Source: Natrinema marinum (lineage in GTDB: Archaea > Halobacteriota > Halobacteria > Halobacteriales > Natrialbaceae). From it: 64,000 bases of DNA. Within the stretch, counting starts at the first letter, position 1, and the number at the start of each line of letters is the position of its first letter. The position numbers and the translations under genes were made by a program. The DNA lies in assembly GCF_024296685.1 (NCBI RefSeq), contig NZ_CP100763.1, positions 806,001-870,000 on the forward strand, written 5' to 3'. The notes under the pieces were generated by a model. The model saw nothing but the letters and a program-made list of their open reading frames with translations, was not told the origin of the DNA and did no database searches. Shown here piece after piece: positions 15,106 to 44,790 of the stretch.

Positions 15106-15289
15106 CGCTTGCGAGCGACCGCTCCCGGCCACTCGACTCGGCGAGTCGTGTCGAATTCGCTCGGTTCTCGGACCGAGCGACGACGCTGGTTGAACCGATT
15201 TCGTGACTGATGGCCTCGAGCCGACGGAATTCGGCCGGTACTGTGTTTCGAAGCCACCCGCTGTCTCGTCTCGCGATCGGCGAATTTGA

Positions 15290-15309
15290 TATAGCGCTAC
15301 TTAGTTTAC
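15290..15309 (+). repeat. Copy 1 of the TATAGCGCTA...AGTTTAC motif
   Basis: Reads TATAGCGCTACTTAGTTTAC, identical at 17 of 20 positions to 40103-40122. The following GAG is shared with the reverse complement of the site at 42513-42532. It contains a short palindrome, TAGCGCTA. Function unknown. Confidence 0.5.
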
Positions 15310-15394
15310 GAGTCGGAAGGGCGTCACACGCGGACTCGGACGCACCGAGTGGTGTGACTAGCAGTCACCGACGACAGTCTGTTCGTCCGAGTGA

Positions 15395-33294: not shown

Positions 33295-33435
33295 CCCGTG
33301 GTCGCTCGTCGCCGTCTGCCGTCCGCTTTTCTCTCGGCCTGACTGCCGCTCGTCGCCGCACCAGCACGATATCGTCGCCTCGGGCCATCAGTGGAGACGA
33401 CAACACTTACACAGCCGGTCCTCGCATCCACGCAC

Positions 33436-34269
33436 ATGATTCACAGCGACTGGAACGACTGGCTCGTCCGCGACGTTGCAGACGCGAACCCGGACGGCGT
33501 AGCCATCTGGTATCTCGGGTGTAACGGCTTCGTCCTCAAGGGGAGCGAGGGAACGACGATCTACGTCGACCCCTATCTCGGACTGGGCGATCCGCCCCGG
33601 ACGGTCCGGATGATCCCCGTCCCGTTCGATCCCGCCGACATCGACGAGGCCGACGCCGTTCTCGCGACGCACGAACACACCGACCACGTTCACGGACCGA
33701 GCCAGGCCCCGATCCTCGAGGGGACGGACGCGACGTTCTACGGTCCGGACGACAGCGTCGCAGTCGCTCGCGACGAGGAGAGCTGGACCGAGGAGTGGGA
33801 CGTAACCGACGACCAGCTCAGCGAGATCGCCGAGGGCGATACCCTCGAGATTGGCGAGTTCACCGTTCACGTCGAACCGGCGAACGACCCAGACGCGACC
33901 CATCCGGTGAGCTACGTGTTCGAACACGAGGGCAGCACGTTCTTCCACGGCGGCGACACGAAGCCGACCGACGAGTTCGAGCGACTCGGCGACGAGTACG
34001 AGATCGACCTCGCGGCGCTCGCGTTCGGCACCGTCGGACGGATTCCCGACAAGCAGACCCGCGAGCCGAAACGAACGCGATGGTACAACGACGAAAACCA
34101 GATCATCGAGTGTGCGGCCGCGCTCGAGTGCGAACGGCTCCTTCCGAGTCACTGGGACATGTGGAAAGGGCTCACCGCCGATCCGACGACGTTACACCAC
34201 CACGCGCGGAGCTTCGCGCATCCGAAGCGGCTCGAGATCGTCGAAATCGGCGACCGAGTCGATCTGTAG
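33436..34269 (+). CDS. Metallo-beta-lactamase-fold hydrolase, UlaG-like
   Basis: 277 residues with the binuclear metal motif HEHTDH (H79, H81, D83, H84) and HGGDTKP in the second half. IWYLGCNGFVLKG and VDPYLGLGDPPR fit the UlaG/L-ascorbate-6-phosphate lactonase branch (MBL-fold lactonases and phosphodiesterases). Late histidines (LLPSHWDMWKG, TTLHHHARSF) complete the site. The true substrate is unknown because no ascorbate pathway genes are near. The ATG at 33436 is chosen because the domain begins directly after it. Confidence 0.8.
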   Translation: MIHSDWNDWLVRDVADANPDGVAIWYLGCNGFVLKGSEGTTIYVDPYLGLGDPPRTVRMIPVPFDPADIDEADAVLATHEHTDHVHGPSQAPILEGTDATFYGPDDSVAVARDEESWTEEWDVTDDQLSEIAEGDTLEIGEFTVHVEPANDPDATHPVSYVFEHEGSTFFHGGDTKPTDEFERLGDEYEIDLAALAFGTVGRIPDKQTREPKRTRWYNDENQIIECAAALECERLLPSHWDMWKGLTADPTTLHHHARSFAHPKRLEIVEIGDRVDL

Positions 34270-34301
34270 CTACTGCCGGAGGGACGTGTGTCCGTCCGCA
34301 C

Positions 34302-34311
34302 GATTTATAGT
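34302..34311 (+). promoter_or_regulatory. TATA box of the hyperacidic protein gene
   Basis: GATTTATAGT lies 25 bases before the ATG at 34337, so the transcript is leaderless. Confidence 0.65.
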
Positions 34312-34336
34312 AATGGTATGGTAACGTTGGTCTCAT

Positions 34337-36199
34337 ATGAGTAGCACCGCCGACACGGACGACGTGGTCGAGGTCAGTACTGACGGACTCACCGTCAGAA
34401 AATCGTTCGCAGCGGACGAGTTCCCCGTCCCTGCGATTCGGTTCGAGATCGAATCGGACCGCGACTCCCCGATTACGTTTCAGCTCTCCGAAGATATTCC
34501 TGCTTCGTTCCCGATGGACAAGGTCGGGTTCCACCCGGATTATCACAGCGACGACTGGACGGCGTTTCAGGACAACCACGTCGAGTTCACCGCCACGCTC
34601 GAGCCCGACGAGCGACTCGAGACGGTCTACGGCATCCAGCTCGACGACGAGAGCAGAGCGACGGAGTTTCTCTCCGAGCCGACGCTCGTCGAACGCGACG
34701 CTGGCGACGACAGCGAATCGGACTCGGAGGCCGATGAAGTCGACGACGAGGTCATCGGTAGCATCGTCTCCGAGGACCGAAGTCGCGCGGTCAAGGACAT
34801 GATCGCCGGCGATTCCGAGTCCGTCCCCGGACTCGAGGACGACGAGCCGACGGACGAGACGGCCTCGGCGGAGTCGGCCGGCGACGACACGGACGATGAC
34901 CCGACCGACGCCGACGATACGCCGGAAGACGACGGGGGGCTCGACCTCAACCTCAGCGACATCGATCCCGATCCGGTCGCGGACGCGGCGGTGGAAGACG
35001 AAAACGAGGAGGACGATACGCCGGACATCGATCTCGGCTTCGAGGAAGAGGAGATTCCCGAGCCGGAGGCCGACGAGAACGCGCTCGGCGCCGCCGACGA
35101 GCCGAGCGTCGAAATCGATCTCGGCACCGACGCGACCGACGAACCGGCCGGCGAGGAGGAGTCGGACGACGACATCGGCGACGAGGTGGCCACAGCCGAG
35201 GAGACGGACGACGCCGGCCCGGAGATCGACCTCGATCTCGGCGACTCGGAGGCCGACGCCGACGACGACTCGGATACCGACCTCGATCTCGACGACTCGG
35301 AGACCGACGCCGACGGCGACGAGACCGACACCGACGATGAGTCCGAGGCTGAGCCGGACGAACTCGAGGCGGAGACGGAACCGTCGCCGGAGGACTCGCC
35401 CGAATCGCCGGCCGACGACGAGTCAGAGGCGGAGCCGAACGAACCTGAAGCAGACTCGGACGAACTCGAGATGGACTCGGTCGATCCCGAAGCGGACTCG
35501 GACGGACCCGAAGCGGATGGAGAGGACCTCGAGTCGACCGACCCTGCAGAGGATGCGACCGACGCCCCCGATGCGACCGACGAAGCCGACGAGACTGGTG
35601 CGGAGCCCGAACCGGAGGACGAGAACGCGGCCGGCGTCGAACCGACCGCCGACGCAGCACCGAACGCCGGTCCCGAGGTCGGCGGCTCGATCGCGGCCCG
35701 TCTCGCGACCGAGATCCGCGACGGAACCGTCGCCGACGAGGACCTCGAGGCCATCCGGGCCGAACTCGATCTCGAGCCGTCCGGCCCCGACATCGCGAAA
35801 GTCGAGCACCTCCAGTCCCGTGTCGAGGAGGTCGCCGCGTACACCGATTCCCTGGAGACGTTTCTCGAGGAGAACGGGACCGGCGCACAGCTCATCGAAG
35901 AGCTTCAGGCTGACCTCGGGGACCTCGAGGACGATGTTTCGGAGCTCGAGGACGGCCTCGAGGAGACGGACTCGCAGGTCGACGACCACGAAGGGGACAT
36001 CGCCGACTTGAGCGAGTGGAACGCGGATCTCGCCGCCGACATCGATGCCGTCGACGAGGACGTCGAGACGGTCGCGGACGACCTCGCGGACGTCGAGGAC
36101 GACCTCGAGACCGTCGAGGACGACCTCGAAGCTGTCCGCGACGACGTGACGGAAATTCAGGAGTGGCGCGACCAGCTCGGCTCGATGTTCTCCGAGTAA
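34337..36199 (+). CDS. Hyperacidic coiled-coil protein
   Basis: 620 residues in three parts. Residues 1-115 are a beta-rich globular domain (TVRKSFAADEFPVPAIRFEIES, ITFQLSEDIPASFPMDKVGFH, HVEFTATLEPDERLETVYGI). Residues about 120-455 are a low-complexity Asp/Glu/Ser/Pro tract. Residues about 460-620 are helical, with a SIAARLATEIRDG helix and a long coiled coil of repeated DDLETVEDDLEAV-type heptads. There is no signal or membrane segment, so it is cytoplasmic. The family is unknown to me, and the shape suggests a scaffold or spacer. A HisG-like gene follows after 97 nt with its own TATA box. Confidence 0.8.
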   Translation: MSSTADTDDVVEVSTDGLTVRKSFAADEFPVPAIRFEIESDRDSPITFQLSEDIPASFPMDKVGFHPDYHSDDWTAFQDNHVEFTATLEPDERLETVYGIQLDDESRATEFLSEPTLVERDAGDDSESDSEADEVDDEVIGSIVSEDRSRAVKDMIAGDSESVPGLEDDEPTDETASAESAGDDTDDDPTDADDTPEDDGGLDLNLSDIDPDPVADAAVEDENEEDDTPDIDLGFEEEEIPEPEADENALGAADEPSVEIDLGTDATDEPAGEEESDDDIGDEVATAEETDDAGPEIDLDLGDSEADADDDSDTDLDLDDSETDADGDETDTDDESEAEPDELEAETEPSPEDSPESPADDESEAEPNEPEADSDELEMDSVDPEADSDGPEADGEDLESTDPAEDATDAPDATDEADETGAEPEPEDENAAGVEPTADAAPNAGPEVGGSIAARLATEIRDGTVADEDLEAIRAELDLEPSGPDIAKVEHLQSRVEEVAAYTDSLETFLEENGTGAQLIEELQADLGDLEDDVSELEDGLEETDSQVDDHEGDIADLSEWNADLAADIDAVDEDVETVADDLADVEDDLETVEDDLEAVRDDVTEIQEWRDQLGSMFSE

Positions 36200-36265
36200 G
36201 CAGCTGTCGTCCGAACCGGCGGTCCGATTTTCGATCACTACGGCGACTGGTCCGGAAACACAACT

Positions 36266-36274
36266 CGTTTATCC
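36266..36274 (+). promoter_or_regulatory. TATA box of the HisG-like gene
   Basis: CGTTTATCC lies 22 bases before the ATG at 36297, fixing that start over an in-frame ATG 15 nt upstream. Confidence 0.55.
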
Positions 36275-36296
36275 GTCGCCAGTGGAGAAGCGAACG

Positions 36297-37223
36297 ATGG
36301 GCGAGACGATACCGATCGCCGTGCCACGGAAGGGGCGACCGCTCGAGTCGGTGCTCGATCGACTCGCGGAGCGCCTCGACGTTCCCGACCTCGCAGATGA
36401 CATCACGTCGACGCTGCGCCACGAGAAGGCGCTCACGAAAGGAACGCTCGACGCCGACGAAGCGGATGTCTACCATCGTCTCGCAGACTACAGCACCGTC
36501 GACGACCCGACCGAGCCCGAGTATACGCTGCTCCGCGACGATCGCGCCGGAAAGCCACGGCGAATCGTCTTCGATAGCGTCACGGTCCCGCTCGAGGGAA
36601 TCGTGGACGCGCCCGACGACGCCGCGGTTCAACTCGTCGGTCGCGAGGAACCGTTCCGCTCGCTTCGCACCCACGAGTTCGCGCTGGGCTTCGACAGCGC
36701 CGATCTCGTCCTGGAGGAAGTCGTCGAACTGCGGCCGGAGCCCCTCGGCCGGATCGCCGACGTGAACGCTCGGATCGACCCGTCCGACACCGACGTGCAG
36801 GTCGTCACCGGCCTCGGCGATACCGTCTACCACACGCTGTTGGCCACGCCCGAGGCGGTCCCCTCGGCGGAATCGATCGATCGGGACTTCCTCGAGGCCT
36901 ACGAGGGCCCGCTGTGTATCGAGCCCCGATACGAGCGACTCGTTCAGGCAGTGCTCGGAACGCGGACGCTCGACGGGATCGACTTTCACTATCCCGAGGA
37001 GGGTCGCGAGGAGGAGGCGGCTATCGCCGACGCCGGTCTGGGCGTCTACCTGACCGTCACCGGCTCGACCGCTCGCGACCACGGCCTCCTGCTCGGCGAG
37101 CAGTTGTTCCCCAGCGAGACCGTGTTGCTCGAGAACACCGCGGAAACGACCGAGACGATCGAGTTCGTCCGCTCGCTGTTGAACGGGACTGACCTCGAGA
37201 CGGAACTCGCGGTCGGCCGATAG
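36297..37223 (+). CDS. HisG-like (ATP phosphoribosyltransferase-fold) protein
   Basis: 308 residues. The start IPIAVPRKGRPLESVLDRLA parallels the HisG N-terminus (IAVPNKGRL...). A late segment, AGLGVYLTVTGSTARDHGL, parallels the HisG PRPP loop (VDLVSTGSTLRANGL), and LCIEPRYERLVQAVLG parallels the HisG domain-2 entry. The middle contains a 70-residue stretch unlike HisG (RHEKALTKGTLDADEADV...). True hisG is normally conserved and separate, so this is probably a diverged paralogue with altered substrate or a binding role. The relation is by motif pattern only. Confidence 0.6.
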   Translation: MGETIPIAVPRKGRPLESVLDRLAERLDVPDLADDITSTLRHEKALTKGTLDADEADVYHRLADYSTVDDPTEPEYTLLRDDRAGKPRRIVFDSVTVPLEGIVDAPDDAAVQLVGREEPFRSLRTHEFALGFDSADLVLEEVVELRPEPLGRIADVNARIDPSDTDVQVVTGLGDTVYHTLLATPEAVPSAESIDRDFLEAYEGPLCIEPRYERLVQAVLGTRTLDGIDFHYPEEGREEEAAIADAGLGVYLTVTGSTARDHGLLLGEQLFPSETVLLENTAETTETIEFVRSLLNGTDLETELAVGR

Positions 37224-39979: not shown

Positions 39980-40102
39980 CCATTCGGTTCCGAAACTCTC
40001 TCTCTCTCCGGTACGCCACAGGCGCTCGCTAGCGCCGAAGCACGCCCGTCGCGTTCTCGGATCGACCCGACGAGATCGAACCCCGCCACGGGAGTGAATC
40101 AG

Positions 40103-40122
40103 TATAGCGCTATGAAGTTTAC
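40103..40122 (+). repeat. Left arm of the 20-bp inverted repeat (copy 2)
   Basis: TATAGCGCTATGAAGTTTAC. Its reverse complement matches 42513-42532 at 18 of 20 positions, and with three further flanking bases at 20 of 23. The two arms face each other across the recombinase unit, 2.4 kb apart. Confidence 0.55.
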
Positions 40123-40285
40123 TTGACCAGACAGAGACTGCTAGATTGAGTGTGAATGTAGTAACTATTCGGGAATTTCCACGAATCCGGCCACAAGAAG
40201 GCCAGAAACACTACTTTCGACCATCGCGGATACCTCGATACACTCCGACGACGCATCGTTCGCAACCGTGTCGATGCCATCACGA

Positions 40286-41335
40286 TCAGCGCTCGGTCAC
40301 GGAGTAAATACAGTCGAGATAGGTCTCCTGAACCCGATCGCCCCAGTTGTGCGTGTACGTATCGATCACGTCGCCGGCGACGTCGCCGCGAAGGTACTGG
40401 ACGATCCCTCGATCGCCGGTCCGATCCCGCAGATGCGTGGTGAAGAAGTGACGGAAGTAGTGTGGCGTCACGTTCTCTTGGGTACCGCCGCCGGTCCGGT
40501 ACCAGCCGCGCTCTCGAGCGTGTTTCTCGACGATATAGCGCACGTCCGACGGCTCGAGGCGTTCGCCCCACGACTCGCCGGTATCGAGGAAGAGGGGCCG
40601 CGCCGGCGACACCGCGTCCGGGCGGATCGCCAGCCACTCGAGGAGCGCGCGCCGAAGTTCGTCGTCGACCGGCACGACGGTATCGCGCTTTCGCTTGTTC
40701 GAGGCCGTCCGCTCCTCGCCGTTGACGGTCGTCCCGCGGGCCGGCTCTGCCGAGACGAACAGCGACGAGGGCCGGCGCTCGAGTCCGACCCGCGGAGACC
40801 ACTCGAGGTCGATCTCGGGCGTCTCGAGGGAGAGGTCGCACAGATCGAGATTGCAGAGTTCGCCGACGCGCATCCCCGTTTTGAGCAGGGTGATCACGAC
40901 GGCTCGCTCGAGTGGATGTGCGATATCGGCAACGAACGACCGCATTTCGCCGACCGAGATGTCCCGTCTGGTCGGGTTCGTATCGATCGATTCGGACATC
41001 TCCTCCATGACCAGCGCCATCGGATTCTCGTCGAAGACGCCGACGCGGGCCATGTAATCGTAGAATCGGTTGAGATACGACGCGTAGGACGCGATCGTAC
41101 TGTCTTCGAACTCGCCGCGCAGCGAGTGAATCCAGGCCATACACTCCCGGCGTTCGGCCGCCCCGACGGCGTCGACCTCGAAGCGCTCGGCGACGAACGC
41201 CTCGAACCGCCGGAGGACGCGCTCGTAGGCCTCGAGCGTCCGTTCGCTCTTGCCGTGGTAGCGCTGGTCGTCGAGGAAGTACGCGATCGGATCGTCGACA
41301 TCCGCCGGCGCTGTGGCCCCGGGCTCAGTCGCCAT
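40286..41335 (-). CDS. Tyrosine recombinase/integrase (XerC/D-like)
   Basis: 349 residues. A SAM-like N-terminal core-binding domain (about 15-120, SERTLEAYERVLRRFEAFV) precedes the catalytic domain. Catalytic residues are visible: R156 (TGMRVGEL), a lysine in the SNKRKRDTV beta-hairpin (K214/K216), the H292-R295 box (PHYFRHFFTTHL), H329 (YTHNWGD) and nucleophile Y339. All are intact, so it should be active. The start overlaps the upstream RHH/winged-helix gene by 11 nt. It could be a chromosomal Xer-type enzyme or the integrase of a small element. Confidence 0.9.
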   Translation of the reverse strand: MATEPGATAPADVDDPIAYFLDDQRYHGKSERTLEAYERVLRRFEAFVAERFEVDAVGAAERRECMAWIHSLRGEFEDSTIASYASYLNRFYDYMARVGVFDENPMALVMEEMSESIDTNPTRRDISVGEMRSFVADIAHPLERAVVITLLKTGMRVGELCNLDLCDLSLETPEIDLEWSPRVGLERRPSSLFVSAEPARGTTVNGEERTASNKRKRDTVVPVDDELRRALLEWLAIRPDAVSPARPLFLDTGESWGERLEPSDVRYIVEKHARERGWYRTGGGTQENVTPHYFRHFFTTHLRDRTGDRGIVQYLRGDVAGDVIDTYTHNWGDRVQETYLDCIYSVTER

Positions 41336-41729
41336 CGCCGCCTCCGTCGACCGTGGTGTACCCGCCGTGGCGACCGCTGTATCGAATCCGGTTGTTCGCC
41401 TGGAGTTTCTCGAGCGTCTCGTCCAGTCGCGACTCGATATCGTCGGAGACCGACTCGAGGAGTTCGTCCCACGAGTACGTGTCAGACGAGAGTGATTCGA
41501 GGACCTGTCTTTCGAGGCCGTTACCCCCAGGGTCTGGGGCCGGAGAACCGGAGTCCGTCTCGTCGGTCGAATCGGGTTCGAACCCCTTTCGACCGGCCTG
41601 TACCATCGTCCGGACGAACTCGCTTTGGCTCATCTCGAGATCGTCGGCGTGAGATTGCCACTCGGCTTTCTGGTAGGCCGGCACGTACGTTTTAACAGAT
41701 TTTCTAGAGGTATCCGCCGAGTCACCCAT
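41325..41729 (-). CDS. RHH plus winged-helix protein (DUF5805-like) coupled to recombinase
   Basis: 134 residues. The N-terminal half is a ribbon-helix-helix type domain (KSVKTYVPAYQKAEWQSHAD, MSQSEFVRTMVQAGRKGF). An acidic linker follows, then a winged-helix segment (ESLSSDTYSWDELLESV, RLDETLEKLQANNRIRYSGRHGGYTTV). With two DNA-binding modules it may act as the recombination directionality or regulatory partner of the recombinase it overlaps by 11 nt. The ATG at 41729 is preferred. An ATG at 41768 is too close to the TATA box (41781-41790). Confidence 0.78.
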   Translation of the reverse strand: MGDSADTSRKSVKTYVPAYQKAEWQSHADDLEMSQSEFVRTMVQAGRKGFEPDSTDETDSGSPAPDPGGNGLERQVLESLSSDTYSWDELLESVSDDIESRLDETLEKLQANNRIRYSGRHGGYTTVDGGGDGD

Positions 41730-41780
41730 ACGTCGTTCATCAGACGCGATGACCTTCAACCTTCCCATGATTCGAGCTAA

Positions 41781-41790
41781 GTATATTTAT
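41781..41790 (-). promoter_or_regulatory. TATA box of the recombinase operon
   Basis: On the minus strand ATAAATATAC, about 50 bases before the ATG at 41729. It predicts a start site near 41760 and a roughly 30-base leader. Confidence 0.55.
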
Positions 41791-41828
41791 CTCTGTTAGT
41801 GGTCCGTAATCTCTCCGGAACCTGTCCC

Positions 41829-41845
41829 CGTTATTTGAGATAACG
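41829..41845. promoter_or_regulatory. Inverted repeat upstream of the recombinase operon
   Basis: CGTTAT-TTGAG-ATAACG, six-base perfect arms with a five-base spacer, 39 bases upstream of the TATA box. It is suited to binding by the RHH protein (autoregulation), or it could be the core of a recombination site. Assignment is by symmetry and position only. Confidence 0.4.
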
Positions 41846-42512
41846 TTTAAGCACGGGATACGCGATCGGATAATAGAATTGCCAGTGGAGGACCACAATT
41901 TAGGATATAAGACTGACTGGGGCAAGCACTCGAGCGAAGTAACGGCCGTCTGAGCGAACGAAGTGCTGTCGTTTTCAGAGACCGGTCTCGAAACAACGCT
42001 CGAAAAACGGCGATGGGCTACGATCGTCGTGGTCGATGACGGCCCTCCTTCGGCGAGCCAGTGGCAACCGACTTGGGTCAGAAACAGACTGTCTCCCGAT
42101 TCGTTCCGCGATGGTGGTCTATCGATTCACGCTCGGTTGGGGCCTGCTCGCTATCTACCGACGGCTGGGCGAATTGAAACGGGGCCTGCGAGTTCCCGAG
42201 TCGCGTCTGTCGATCGACTGAAAGCGTCGGCGGCCGTACTCGCCTCTCTGCGCCTCCGTACTCGGCCGCAGTCGATCTTCTTATCTCTTTGCACCGTCTT
42301 CGTCCTCCCTGAGGGGGCACAGACGGCTCTAGAGGGCGGTCAGCACTCTCTCACTGGTGCATTCCCCTCTCGAGGGGGCCCCGTTCGTCGCCACCGTCGT
42401 ACTGCCACAGGAGGGTGGAACAGCGCGCCGTCGCGTTTCGATTCCTCCGGGGTGTGCCGTTCGTTTCCCCAGAGTCGTCGTCTCGAGCCCACTGCCGACG
42501 ACTATCGGGCTC

Positions 42513-42532
42513 GTAAACTTCATGGTGCTATA
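42513..42532 (-). repeat. Right arm of the 20-bp inverted repeat (copy 3)
   Basis: On the plus strand GTAAACTTCATGGTGCTATA, the reverse complement of 40103-40122 with 2 mismatches. On the minus strand the following GAG is shared with copy 1 at 15290-15309. It lies 43 bp from the 3' end of the PH-domain gene. Confidence 0.55.
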
Positions 42533-42574
42533 CAGAGTGGCCAAGTATGACGAGCGAGAACGAGCGCGTCTCGA

Positions 42575-44176
42575 TTACAGTTCGCCGTCGTCGACCGCTT
42601 CGTCGTCCACCGTCGTGCTCGCATCCCATCTTCCCCGACTGCTCGTTCGCTGTTGCTTGCGAACGCGAAGTCGCTCCTGTAACCGCTCCTCGATTTCGGT
42701 CTGGAGCTCGAGCCCCCGCATTGCGTCCACGTCGTAGGCCGTCGCGGCGCGCCCGAAAAACGAGGCGGAGCTGGCGGTGTCCGCCGTCACGCTGGCGAGA
42801 CCGCGCCGTCGTTGGAAGATCGTCGATTCGTGGAGGACGGCCTGTACTCGGTAGTGCGGGACGACCTTCGTCGTTCGCCGCCAGAACCCCGTGCGCGTGA
42901 GGAAGTATCGCTCGCCGACGCGAAATCCCCGGTTCGTCCACTTGAGGTGGGCGGCAATGGGGGCGATGACCGCGAGGGCGGCGACGAGGTACCACCGCCG
43001 GACGAACGGGGCGTACCGCGCGATCAGGTACGCGAGGCCGACGACGACGGCGACGACGAGCAGGTAGCGGACCGCGTAGCGTTCTCGCGAGCGTCGCGGG
43101 GGCGACTCTAAATCGACCGGCCCGAACGGTTCGATCGCACGCGCGAGCGCACCTACCCGATCGGCGTCGGCGAGGGGAATCGCGGACTCCGTTCCGCGGG
43201 CACCGGACTGGCCGGGCGCGTAGCCGGCGGTCTCGACGCTCAACGCGGCGTACCCGAACCAGCGATAGGGAATCGACTCGGAGATCGTCAGCGCCTGCAC
43301 TTTCTCGAGGGGGATCGTGCCGCTGTAGCGCTGGAGGAGGCCCCGCTCGTAGTAGAGTTCGTCGTCGGTGCGGGTAAGCCGGAAGCCGTAGTACCGGGAA
43401 ACCGTCAGGGCCGCGCTCAGCACCCAGGCGGCGAGCGCGAAAAGCAGGAGGCCCCAGACGAGGGCGAGCACTCCGCTCGCGGGCCCCGGAAGGGCCTCCA
43501 TGCGGTCGACGGGGACCAGCGTCGTGGGGTCGAGGCCGCTGGCGAAGGAAAGCGCGATGCCACCGAGGACGCTGGCACCCGGATCGATGGTGAAGATGCT
43601 CAGGACCGCGAGTTCTCGAGGCTGGATCTCGAATAGGACTTCCTCCTCCGCGGCGGCCGTCGTCTCGCGGGCTGTGGGAGTCCCCTCGAGTCCGGTCTCG
43701 AGCGCGTCGGCGTCACCTCCCTCGTCGGCCGCGTCGGCGCTCGCGCCGCGTCGCAGTTGCCGTCTGAGGCGGCGAGCCTCGTCTTCGTCAACGTACCGGA
43801 GGCTGACCTCGGTCTCACCACCGCCGGCGGTCTCGATGTGGACCGCGGCGATTCCGAGGAGCCGTTCGACGACGTTCTGTCGGATGTCGACGTTCTGGAC
43901 CCGTCCGAGTGGGAGTTCGCGATCCCGACGCGAGATCACGCCGGAGGTAACGTCGAACGTGTCCGCGGTGAGTTCGTAGTGGAACCGCTGGTAGTAGGCG
44001 AACTCGTAGACGATACCCATAACGATCCCGATGGTGACGAGCCCGAACACCGAGAGGAGGTTCATCCCGTTGCTGCCGGGCGAGACGACGACGCCGATGA
44101 CGAAGAAGACGAACCCCGTGTTGAGGCTGCGCGAGAGCGACCGGACGGCGATCGAGGCGGGGTGGAGTTTCTTCAT
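42575..44176 (-). CDS. Large PH-domain (bPH2/DUF304, YdbT-like) membrane protein, copy 1
   Basis: 533 residues with about three bacterial PH (bPH2) units between pairs of membrane helices. The first is around residues 70-150 (FDVTSGVISRRDRELPLGRVQNVDIRQ, then LLGIAAVHIETAGGGETEV), the second around 275-330 (ERGLLQRYSGTIPLEKVQALTI) and the third around 410-500 (FFLTRTGFWRRTTKVVPHYRVQAV). The C-terminus is charged. Bacillus YdbT of this type confers resistance to an antimicrobial together with YdbS. The start overlaps the upstream small PH gene by 4 nt. A paralogue is at 50770-52380. Confidence 0.86.
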   Translation of the reverse strand: MKKLHPASIAVRSLSRSLNTGFVFFVIGVVVSPGSNGMNLLSVFGLVTIGIVMGIVYEFAYYQRFHYELTADTFDVTSGVISRRDRELPLGRVQNVDIRQNVVERLLGIAAVHIETAGGGETEVSLRYVDEDEARRLRRQLRRGASADAADEGGDADALETGLEGTPTARETTAAAEEEVLFEIQPRELAVLSIFTIDPGASVLGGIALSFASGLDPTTLVPVDRMEALPGPASGVLALVWGLLLFALAAWVLSAALTVSRYYGFRLTRTDDELYYERGLLQRYSGTIPLEKVQALTISESIPYRWFGYAALSVETAGYAPGQSGARGTESAIPLADADRVGALARAIEPFGPVDLESPPRRSRERYAVRYLLVVAVVVGLAYLIARYAPFVRRWYLVAALAVIAPIAAHLKWTNRGFRVGERYFLTRTGFWRRTTKVVPHYRVQAVLHESTIFQRRRGLASVTADTASSASFFGRAATAYDVDAMRGLELQTEIEERLQERLRVRKQQRTSSRGRWDASTTVDDEAVDDGEL

Positions 44177-44661
44177 ACGGCGTCTTCACCCGCGCTCTCG
44201 ATCGCGAGCCGGCGCAGTGACTCCTGAAGATCTTCCGCGCGCGTCGGCGTCAGCCCGGGGATCGCCACGTCCGAACTCCGGGAGCCCGCCGTGTAGACGA
44301 CCACCGTCGAGAGACCGACGGTCCGCTCGAGCGGCGAGCGTCGGGAGTCGACGTGCTGGACCCGCACGTAGGGGACGACGGTCTGGATCCGTGTGAAGAC
44401 GCCGCGTTTGATGTAGAGGTCGTCGTCCCGGAGGTCGAACCGCCAGATGCCGTAGCGTCGCCAGGCGACGATGACGCGCAACACGGCGAGCGCGACGGCG
44501 AGTCCGATAGCGGCAGGGACGAGCGTCCCTTGTGCGGGGTTCGGGAGCTCGGTTCGGGTGAGCGCGAGCGCTCCGCCGACGATGAGTCCGCCGAGGATCG
44601 CGGCTCGAGCGACGGCGAGGATGAGCCAGACGACTCGCACTCGCGGAGTGAGCCGTTCCAT
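44173..44661 (-). CDS. Small PH-domain (bPH2, YdbS-like) membrane protein, copy 1
   Basis: 162 residues: two N-terminal membrane helices (VVWLILAVARAAILGGLIVG, GTLVPAAIGLAVALAVLRV), one bPH2 domain (WRFDLRDDDLYIKRGVFTRIQTVVPYVRVQHVDSRR) and a C-terminal helix (PTRAEDLQESLRRLAIES). The stop overlaps the large PH gene (ATGA), so both proteins are made together and probably form a complex. The ATG at 44661 removes an unlikely upstream extension. It diverges from a crotonase gene. Confidence 0.86.
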   Translation of the reverse strand: MERLTPRVRVVWLILAVARAAILGGLIVGGALALTRTELPNPAQGTLVPAAIGLAVALAVLRVIVAWRRYGIWRFDLRDDDLYIKRGVFTRIQTVVPYVRVQHVDSRRSPLERTVGLSTVVVYTAGSRSSDVAIPGLTPTRAEDLQESLRRLAIESAGEDAV

Positions 44662-44790
44662 AGCTGTCGTGACGGAACAAACGAGATTAAAGGGTTGGAA
44701 AGCGGTGGGCGTTCGCAGCACGTGAGAGCGACCGGCAACGGGTGCAATCGATCACCCGAATTTATGCGGCTCGCACGGGTGATGCCGATC

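Follow-up and report, generated by a model that had tools for sequence, protein, structure and literature searches.

The archaeal XerA/dif system consists of a single recombinase of the Xer family and a site of 28 bp that forms an imperfect inverted repeat (Cortez et al. 2010, PMC2958812). As described there, dif lies near xerA in Sulfolobales, with two dif copies (one of them highly conserved) at one chromosomal location in S. solfataricus, and the dif of Thermococcales is single, is located in the termination region and does not adjoin xerA. In the XerS/difSL system of streptococci and lactococci, the gene of the single recombinase adjoins its own site (PMC5357621). Xer-family recombinases have been suggested to invert DNA at short inverted repeats in Ureaplasma (PMC3599477). 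For Haloferax volcanii, a 2020 review stated that deletion of four of its xerC/D genes did not affect viability and that any part in termination had yet to be determined (PMC7776575).

The stretch of 64,000 nucleotides of Natrinema marinum analysed here (the window) contains the gene of an Xer-like tyrosine recombinase flanked by two inverted copies of a short site. This arrangement, in which an inverted pair of sites surrounds the gene of its own recombinase, is best read as a new layout of Xer/dif. The pdif modules of Acinetobacter plasmids are genes bounded by inverted Xer sites, with plasmid-borne resistance cargo. The locus shares with them the inverted Xer-type sites that bound genes, but it is chromosomal, and the bounded genes are widely conserved and include the recombinase itself. 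It shares a single Xer-family recombinase and an imperfect inverted-repeat site with archaeal XerA/dif, whereas the accessible text of PMC2958812 describes no inverted pair around xerA, and its main text contains no word beginning with 'halo'. The XerA/dif site has an 11-6-11 bp build and usually occurs once per chromosome; the sites reported here have a centre of about 7 bp, form an inverted pair and number about 9-10 in the N. marinum genome. As in XerS/difSL, there is a single recombinase whose gene adjoins its own site, but XerS/difSL, in the accessible text of PMC5357621, has a single site and no inverted pair around the gene. The Ureaplasma system (PMC3599477) is similar in its short inverted repeats and suggested inversion by Xer-family recombinases; it differs in serving phase variation, whereas here the orientation of the segment is stable within genera and the recombinase gene lies inside it. 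Among the matches listed in a search of titles and abstract beginnings in the openly licensed literature, none described an inverted pair of dif sites flanking the xer gene of an archaeon.

The left arm of the inverted repeat is the 20-mer TATAGCGCTATGAAGTTTAC at 40103-40122 on the forward strand, and the right arm at 42513-42532 is the reverse complement of this 20-mer with 2 mismatches (18/20). Complementarity of the arms extends to 24 nt at 88%. With up to 3 mismatches, the 20-mer had three matches in the whole window, the third at 15290-15309, while 100 dinucleotide-preserving shuffles of the window gave a mean of 0.00 and a largest count of 0. The inverted repeat reported in the preliminary description is real by this measure. 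That description had added that such a repeat could arise by chance a few times in a window of this size, which was too cautious, because the 3.77-Mb genome of N. marinum contained no matches beyond the same three and the reversed control gave 0. The left arm belongs to a downstream Xer-type site at 40097-40125 on the reverse strand (19.8 bits with model R1 and 36.3 with a position weight matrix, PWM), 163 bp past the recombinase stop. The right arm belongs to an upstream, inverted site at 42510-42536 on the forward strand (18.0 bits and 31.5, respectively). PWM scores of at least 12 occurred at only three places in the window, and the maximum on ten mononucleotide-shuffled windows was 6.5.

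The recombinase gene (40286-41335, reverse strand) encodes 349 amino acids with Pfam matches to Phage_integrase (4.7e-15) and Phage_int_SAM_1. Residues R156, K214, H292, R295, D318 and Y327 were invariant in 68/68 recombinases, K214 being assigned by position only. Asp318 occupies the H/W position of the R-K-H-R-[H/W]-Y series, where XerA has a second His. The protein scored 116.7 bits against the NCBIfam XerA equivalog recomb_XerA_Arch (NF040815), under the cut-off of 220. Its gene start is overlapped by a gene on the same strand (41325-41768) for a DUF5805 protein (Pfam 3.7e-29, residues 73-137). The ribbon-helix-helix (RHH) label given to this unit in the preliminary description found no Pfam backing; apart from DUF5805, only weak, sub-threshold Pfam matches were obtained. 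No mention of DUF5805 was found in the openly licensed PMC papers searched. The rest of the site pair encloses a 0.74-kb tract (41769-42512) without a Pfam-supported gene; two ORFs scanned in it had no Pfam match, and no structured RNA was found in a search of Rfam to an E value of 0.1. The GC content was 0.607 between the arms, 0.583 in this tract and 0.664 in the whole window. A bPH-domain gene and a similar neighbour lie directly outside the upstream site (42575-44721, reverse strand; Pfam bPH_2 for 42575-44176). On the downstream side, gene-level comparison identified genes for a beta-lactamase-fold protein, a 620-aa protein and a 313-aa protein (33391-37223, forward strand).

A recombinase match was present in 58/61 genomes, that of N. 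marinum included, and in 47/47 near-complete genomes; the three genomes without a match were 59-78% complete, and one of the 58 (G048) had only a weak match (31%). DUF5805 was directly upstream of xer in 56/57 loci by tblastn match. Since the recombinase occurs in nearly all genomes and DUF5805 almost always precedes it, DUF5805-xer is a core chromosomal operon and not a passenger. A phage collection contained no close relative of the recombinase, only two records at 22%. Only two of nine plasmid records exceeded 60%, and both were on large haloarchaeal replicons.

Judged from sequence comparison, most haloarchaea examined keep a matching inverted pair of putative sites around the chromosomal recombinase gene. 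With xer oriented rightward, a degenerate copy of the arm followed the stop codon of xer in most loci, and a second copy, inverted, was located upstream of DUF5805. Alignment of 53 site sequences yielded ACnnATAAATCnTATATCGCTATATnAAnT, and ACnnRTAAAYCnYATATCGCTATAYnRA is an approximate summary consensus. The site is an imperfect dyad of RTAAAYC, a centre of about 7 bp and GCTATAY, a build that appears to resemble the core site of a tyrosine recombinase. The PWM was trained on 57 loci and applied at a threshold of at least 25 bits to 80 named loci from haloarchaea, which were the best among 220 relatives found; some training species were also among these test loci. In this set, the downstream site was found at the equivalent place in 78/80 loci and on the opposite strand in 0/80, the upstream inverted site was found in 69/80 and on the opposite strand in 2/80, and both sites were found in 67/80; at least one site was below 25 bits in the other 13/80. 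A one-mismatch search of 61 genomes gave 1-24 matches each compared with 0-5 for the reversed control among the matches listed, where the reversed control outnumbered the site matches in one incomplete genome (G037). The preliminary description had proposed to look for further copies of the 20-mer; matches to the site were largely arranged as pairs, one on the minus strand followed by one on the plus strand, and not scattered at random.

The orientation of the module relative to its flanks was compared by tblastx in 68 loci, namely the 67/80 with both sites and the window; the 13 with a site missing at 25 bits were excluded. The flanks were on the same sides in 656 genome pairs, inverted in 373 and ambiguous in 3. 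Flank matches on both sides were obtained for 369 same and 56 inverted pairs, and the 56 had no same-side match; they are not independent, as 54 involve L139 or L143 and the rest are L141 and L145 versus L161. Two-colouring of the loci by orientation left 2 conflicts. As a control, NifU neighbourhoods were delimited by set distances from the gene instead of by sites, and they gave 573 same and 0 inverted pairs. RIO2 neighbourhoods gave 306 same and 17 inverted pairs, all 17 with one genome (G049) and with one-sided matches.

These exchanges were visible at the gene level. In the window and in Natrinema mahii (L112), fumC-znf-bPH is on the DUF5805 side, and the genes for the 313-aa, 620-aa and metallo-beta-lactamase-fold proteins are on the xer side. 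Both flank gene sets are exchanged relative to the window in Halostagnicola (L139), Natronosalvus (L143) and others. Homologues of the beta-lactamase-fold, 620-aa and 313-aa genes are upstream of DUF5805 in the inverted lineages, and in two loci (L064, L065) homologues of the bPH genes are reversed and flank the module on its xer side. Between two Halorubrum loci (L168 and L160) the module is on the same strand at 87%, and one flank is reversed at 88-94%. Among 1328 flank matches of inverted type from 116 loci, those nearest to the sites start 16-84 bp away from them. Comparison across genomes has shown a conserved inverted pair of putative sites, its genetic link to xer, and inversions that end at or near the sites. 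Alignment with relatives, as the preliminary description had suggested, revealed the block in opposite orientation in other lineages, and not a block kept in one orientation with no conservation of the repeats.

On a tree of the recombinases from the 57 of the 68 loci that flank matches connected, orientation changed at least 5 times, with at least 3 changes forced by starred branches. Shuffled labels needed 13.5 changes, and 0/500 were as low as 5. In the portion of the tree with Natrinema, Natrialba and Natronococcus, 32/32 loci shared one orientation. Given this clustering and constancy, flipping of the module, as judged from assembled genomes, is real but slow. The earlier idea that the arms are recombination sites and that the DNA between them flips is supported on the evolutionary scale, with opposite orientations and breakpoints at or near the sites, but it is not supported as a frequent switch, as orientation is constant in 32 loci and the site centres differ.

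The 6-bp centre was identical in both sites of 2/68 haloarchaeal pairs (1.7 with shuffled partners) and, in the methanogen-like genomes described below, of 6/30 pairs (4.5 shuffled), these 30 being the pairs of the 37 scanned loci L280-L316 with exactly one exact site per strand. In the window's own pair, 2/8 central positions differ. Tyrosine recombinases usually need matching overlaps, and mismatched overlaps recombine poorly; with centres that differ, selection therefore seems not to maintain the pair in a state fit for inversion. The differing centres argue against rapid switching and point to a standing function in recombination between identical sister sites, or in binding without recombination. 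Likeness of the two sites within a genome was not significant in 49/57 haloarchaeal loci with both sites, with p from 0.07 to 0.69 against shuffled partners for five position sets. In the methanogen-like loci, likeness gave p 0.017 for the centre and p 0.025 for the flanking positions, and since the flanking positions are also alike, relatedness may explain the likeness of the centres.

Outside haloarchaea, the layout recurs with XerA homologues. The exact pattern RTAAAYNNNATNNNGCTATA matched 89/196 genomes of the phylum: 36/40 haloarchaea, 42/42 genomes of six families (f20, f27, f29, f33, f34 and f35), with matches on both strands in 37/42, and 11/114 of the remaining non-haloarchaeal genomes, with both strands in 0/114. 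The six families were grouped after the matches were seen, and the tally by family was made by eye from the table and sums to the total of 89. They are presumably Methanomicrobiales-like methanogens. No genome of families f29, f34 and f35 had more than one exact match on either strand. When 20 methanogen-like genomes were searched again, the matches were mostly pairs of a minus-strand site followed by a plus-strand site, and the reversed control gave 0. In 40 such loci, whose layouts were counted by eye, the pair was mostly beside genes for DUF5806, MobB and GlmM, names taken from one example of each. A XerA homologue was inside the site pair in 34/40 loci, three of these pairs having one site with a mismatch and one pair (L316) enclosing glmM too; xer was directly outside the pair in 4/40 (L281-L284), and a single site was found in 2/40 (L318, L319). 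The two recombinases scanned from this group (L285 and L289) scored 244.8 and 295.2, above the XerA cut-off that the window recombinase fails. Relative to DUF5806-glmM, xer pointed one way in 27 loci (L318 and L319 included) and the other way in 7, was outside in 4 and was unreadable in 2. Opposite states occurred within one genus (g92; L285 and L288 versus L286 and L287) and within one family (f35; L300 versus L301-L305).

Taken together, the arms are probably inverted sites of Xer/dif type that bracket their own xer gene, and not the ends of an integrated element. Haloarchaea and the related methanogen-like families with XerA probably inherited from a common ancestor the layout of a site, xer with or without DUF5805, and an inverted site. 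We infer that the recombinase would bind RTAAAYC and GCTATAY, cleave the DNA and swap strands across the centre; the cut position and the purpose are predictions of the same kind. Recombination between the two sites would invert the module, which has flipped several times in evolution with breakpoints at the sites, but rarely; the rarity would probably come from the difference between the two centres. The main job would most likely be recombination of identical sites on sister chromosomes, which is dimer resolution, with inversion as a slow side reaction. Several observations run counter to this reading: the two centres of a pair are rarely identical, other pairs surround genes unrelated to recombination or DNA without an evident gene, the window recombinase scores below the XerA cut-off and has Asp at the position of the second His, the methanogen-like loci include 4/40 with xer outside the pair and 2/40 with one site, 13/80 haloarchaeal loci have at least one site below the threshold, and the module and flanks of L168 and L184 (below) have parted with no inversion to be seen.

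We consider it unlikely that the sites are instead protein-binding sites, for the recombinase, DUF5805 or another regulator, whose role is to form loops or to insulate modules, with inversion as an occasional non-functional accident. Such binding would fit site centres that differ in nearly all haloarchaeal pairs, RIO2 bracketed by a site pair in 29/40 genomes with few inversions, pairs around DNA without an evident gene, and the four methanogen-like loci with xer outside the pair. It fits poorly with repeated inversions that stop at or near the sites, with the inverted-arm build typical of tyrosine recombinase sites, and with families f29, f34 and f35, where the few exact matches form a pair that usually encloses a XerA homologue. 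A phase-variable switch, with frequent flipping of the module in a population and consequent changes in the expression of neighbouring genes, is less probable still. Site-specific inversion systems combine inverted sites with both orientations of the segment, and here both orientations are found between species; a recombinase gene between inverted sites and flips documented between lineages are what such a switch would show. Those systems also have identical crossover centres, whereas here the two centres are rarely the same, orientation is clustered on the tree and constant throughout one clade, and the operon promoter is probably within the module.

The preliminary description had offered the ends of a small integrated element as one reading of the arms, and an integrated or transposed element with its own recombinase now seems very improbable. 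Observations in its favour come from the Halorubrum loci L168 and L184, in which the modules are 91% alike and no flank matches within the compared DNA, and from an extra opposite-facing xer/DUF5805 copy within the module of 4/57 loci. Simple inversion does not explain the former pattern, and module and flanks can part without visible inversion. Integrated mobile elements have patchy presence and direct-repeat ends, and insertion by a tyrosine integrase leaves direct, not inverted, repeats, so the inverted ends do not support an element. The recombinase is also near-universal in haloarchaea in conserved neighbourhoods, has no close relative in the phage collection and only two plasmid records above 60%, and has XerA homologues in the same layout outside haloarchaea. 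Chance resemblance of two 20-mers without biological meaning is refuted by the expectation of 0.00 in the window and by a site kept at the equivalent place across families.

For the Xer/dif-type reading, a more specific form can be proposed tentatively, and it is possible but doubtful. In haloarchaea and the methanogen-like group, mismatched (heterospecific) inverted dif-type sites at xer would each recombine only with their sister copy, so that dimers are resolved and inversion is suppressed; in haloarchaea the pair would have spread to other core genes and given rise to chromosome-wide Xer-bounded modules. This would be one way for core genes, RIO2 among them, to end up as recombination-bounded modules. 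The candidate site and recombinase are present in the majority of the haloarchaeal genomes analysed and also in relatives that do not belong to the class, and the recombinase gene appears to have stayed between its two inverted sites across a long stretch of evolution. A candidate site beside a candidate recombinase makes it directly testable whether chromosome dimers are resolved in haloarchaea, and at which place.

Other sites were found in the N. marinum genome. Besides the pair around xer, there was a pair around an alpha/beta hydrolase gene, and two more enclosed DNA with no obvious gene (3764790-3765922 and 2876789-2877514); single sites were located downstream of RIO2 and at 15290 of the window. 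Site pairs around RIO2, around the alpha/beta hydrolase gene and around DNA without an evident gene are not explained by dimer resolution. NifU-DUF5783 was considered as a further site-bounded module and was rejected, as sites were present around NifU in some genomes but were inconsistent across the 40-genome set; it was then used as the control described above. The third copy in the window (15284-15313, reverse strand; 13.8 bits with model R1 and PWM score 36.9), for which no partner was found in the window, is about 120 bp upstream of a DnaJ-domain gene and also has TrmB as a neighbour.

The borders of the module, that is, the inverted pair of Xer/dif-type sites and the DUF5805-xer operon between them, were not the same at all loci. 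The modules of the Halorubrum loci L160 and L168 contain homologues of the window genes encoding the metallo-beta-lactamase-fold, 620-aa and 313-aa proteins, indicating that the module borders move. The upstream site is found at a distance of about 4.6-4.8 kb in most of the Halorubrum loci that fall within L154-L189. In the methanogen-like genus g60 (L281-L284), other DNA was found inside the pair, and xerA, the gene of the archaeal chromosome-resolution recombinase, is located just beyond the '+' site.

Inverted pairs of the same site enclosed the RIO2 kinase gene in 29 of 40 genomes (L190-L229). In the N. marinum genome itself, site pairs at L091 (4791-5923) and L245 (314-1039) span 0.7-1.1 kb, and no acidic-protein gene was evident within either pair. 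A third strong copy of the site was identified in the window at 15284-15313 (-), with the gene of a TrmB-like regulator on one side, that of a DnaJ-domain protein on the other, and what we take to be menaquinone genes further out; this copy had no partner within the window.

Four loci (L047, L051, L061 and L063) carried a second, opposite-facing xer/DUF5805 copy within the same site pair, with the second-copy xer being about 60% identical, and three of the four also contained a third, partial xer there. Residue 318 of the window recombinase (xer, 40286-41335 (-)) is Asp at the position of the catalytic second His of XerA, as in all 68 haloarchaeal sequences.
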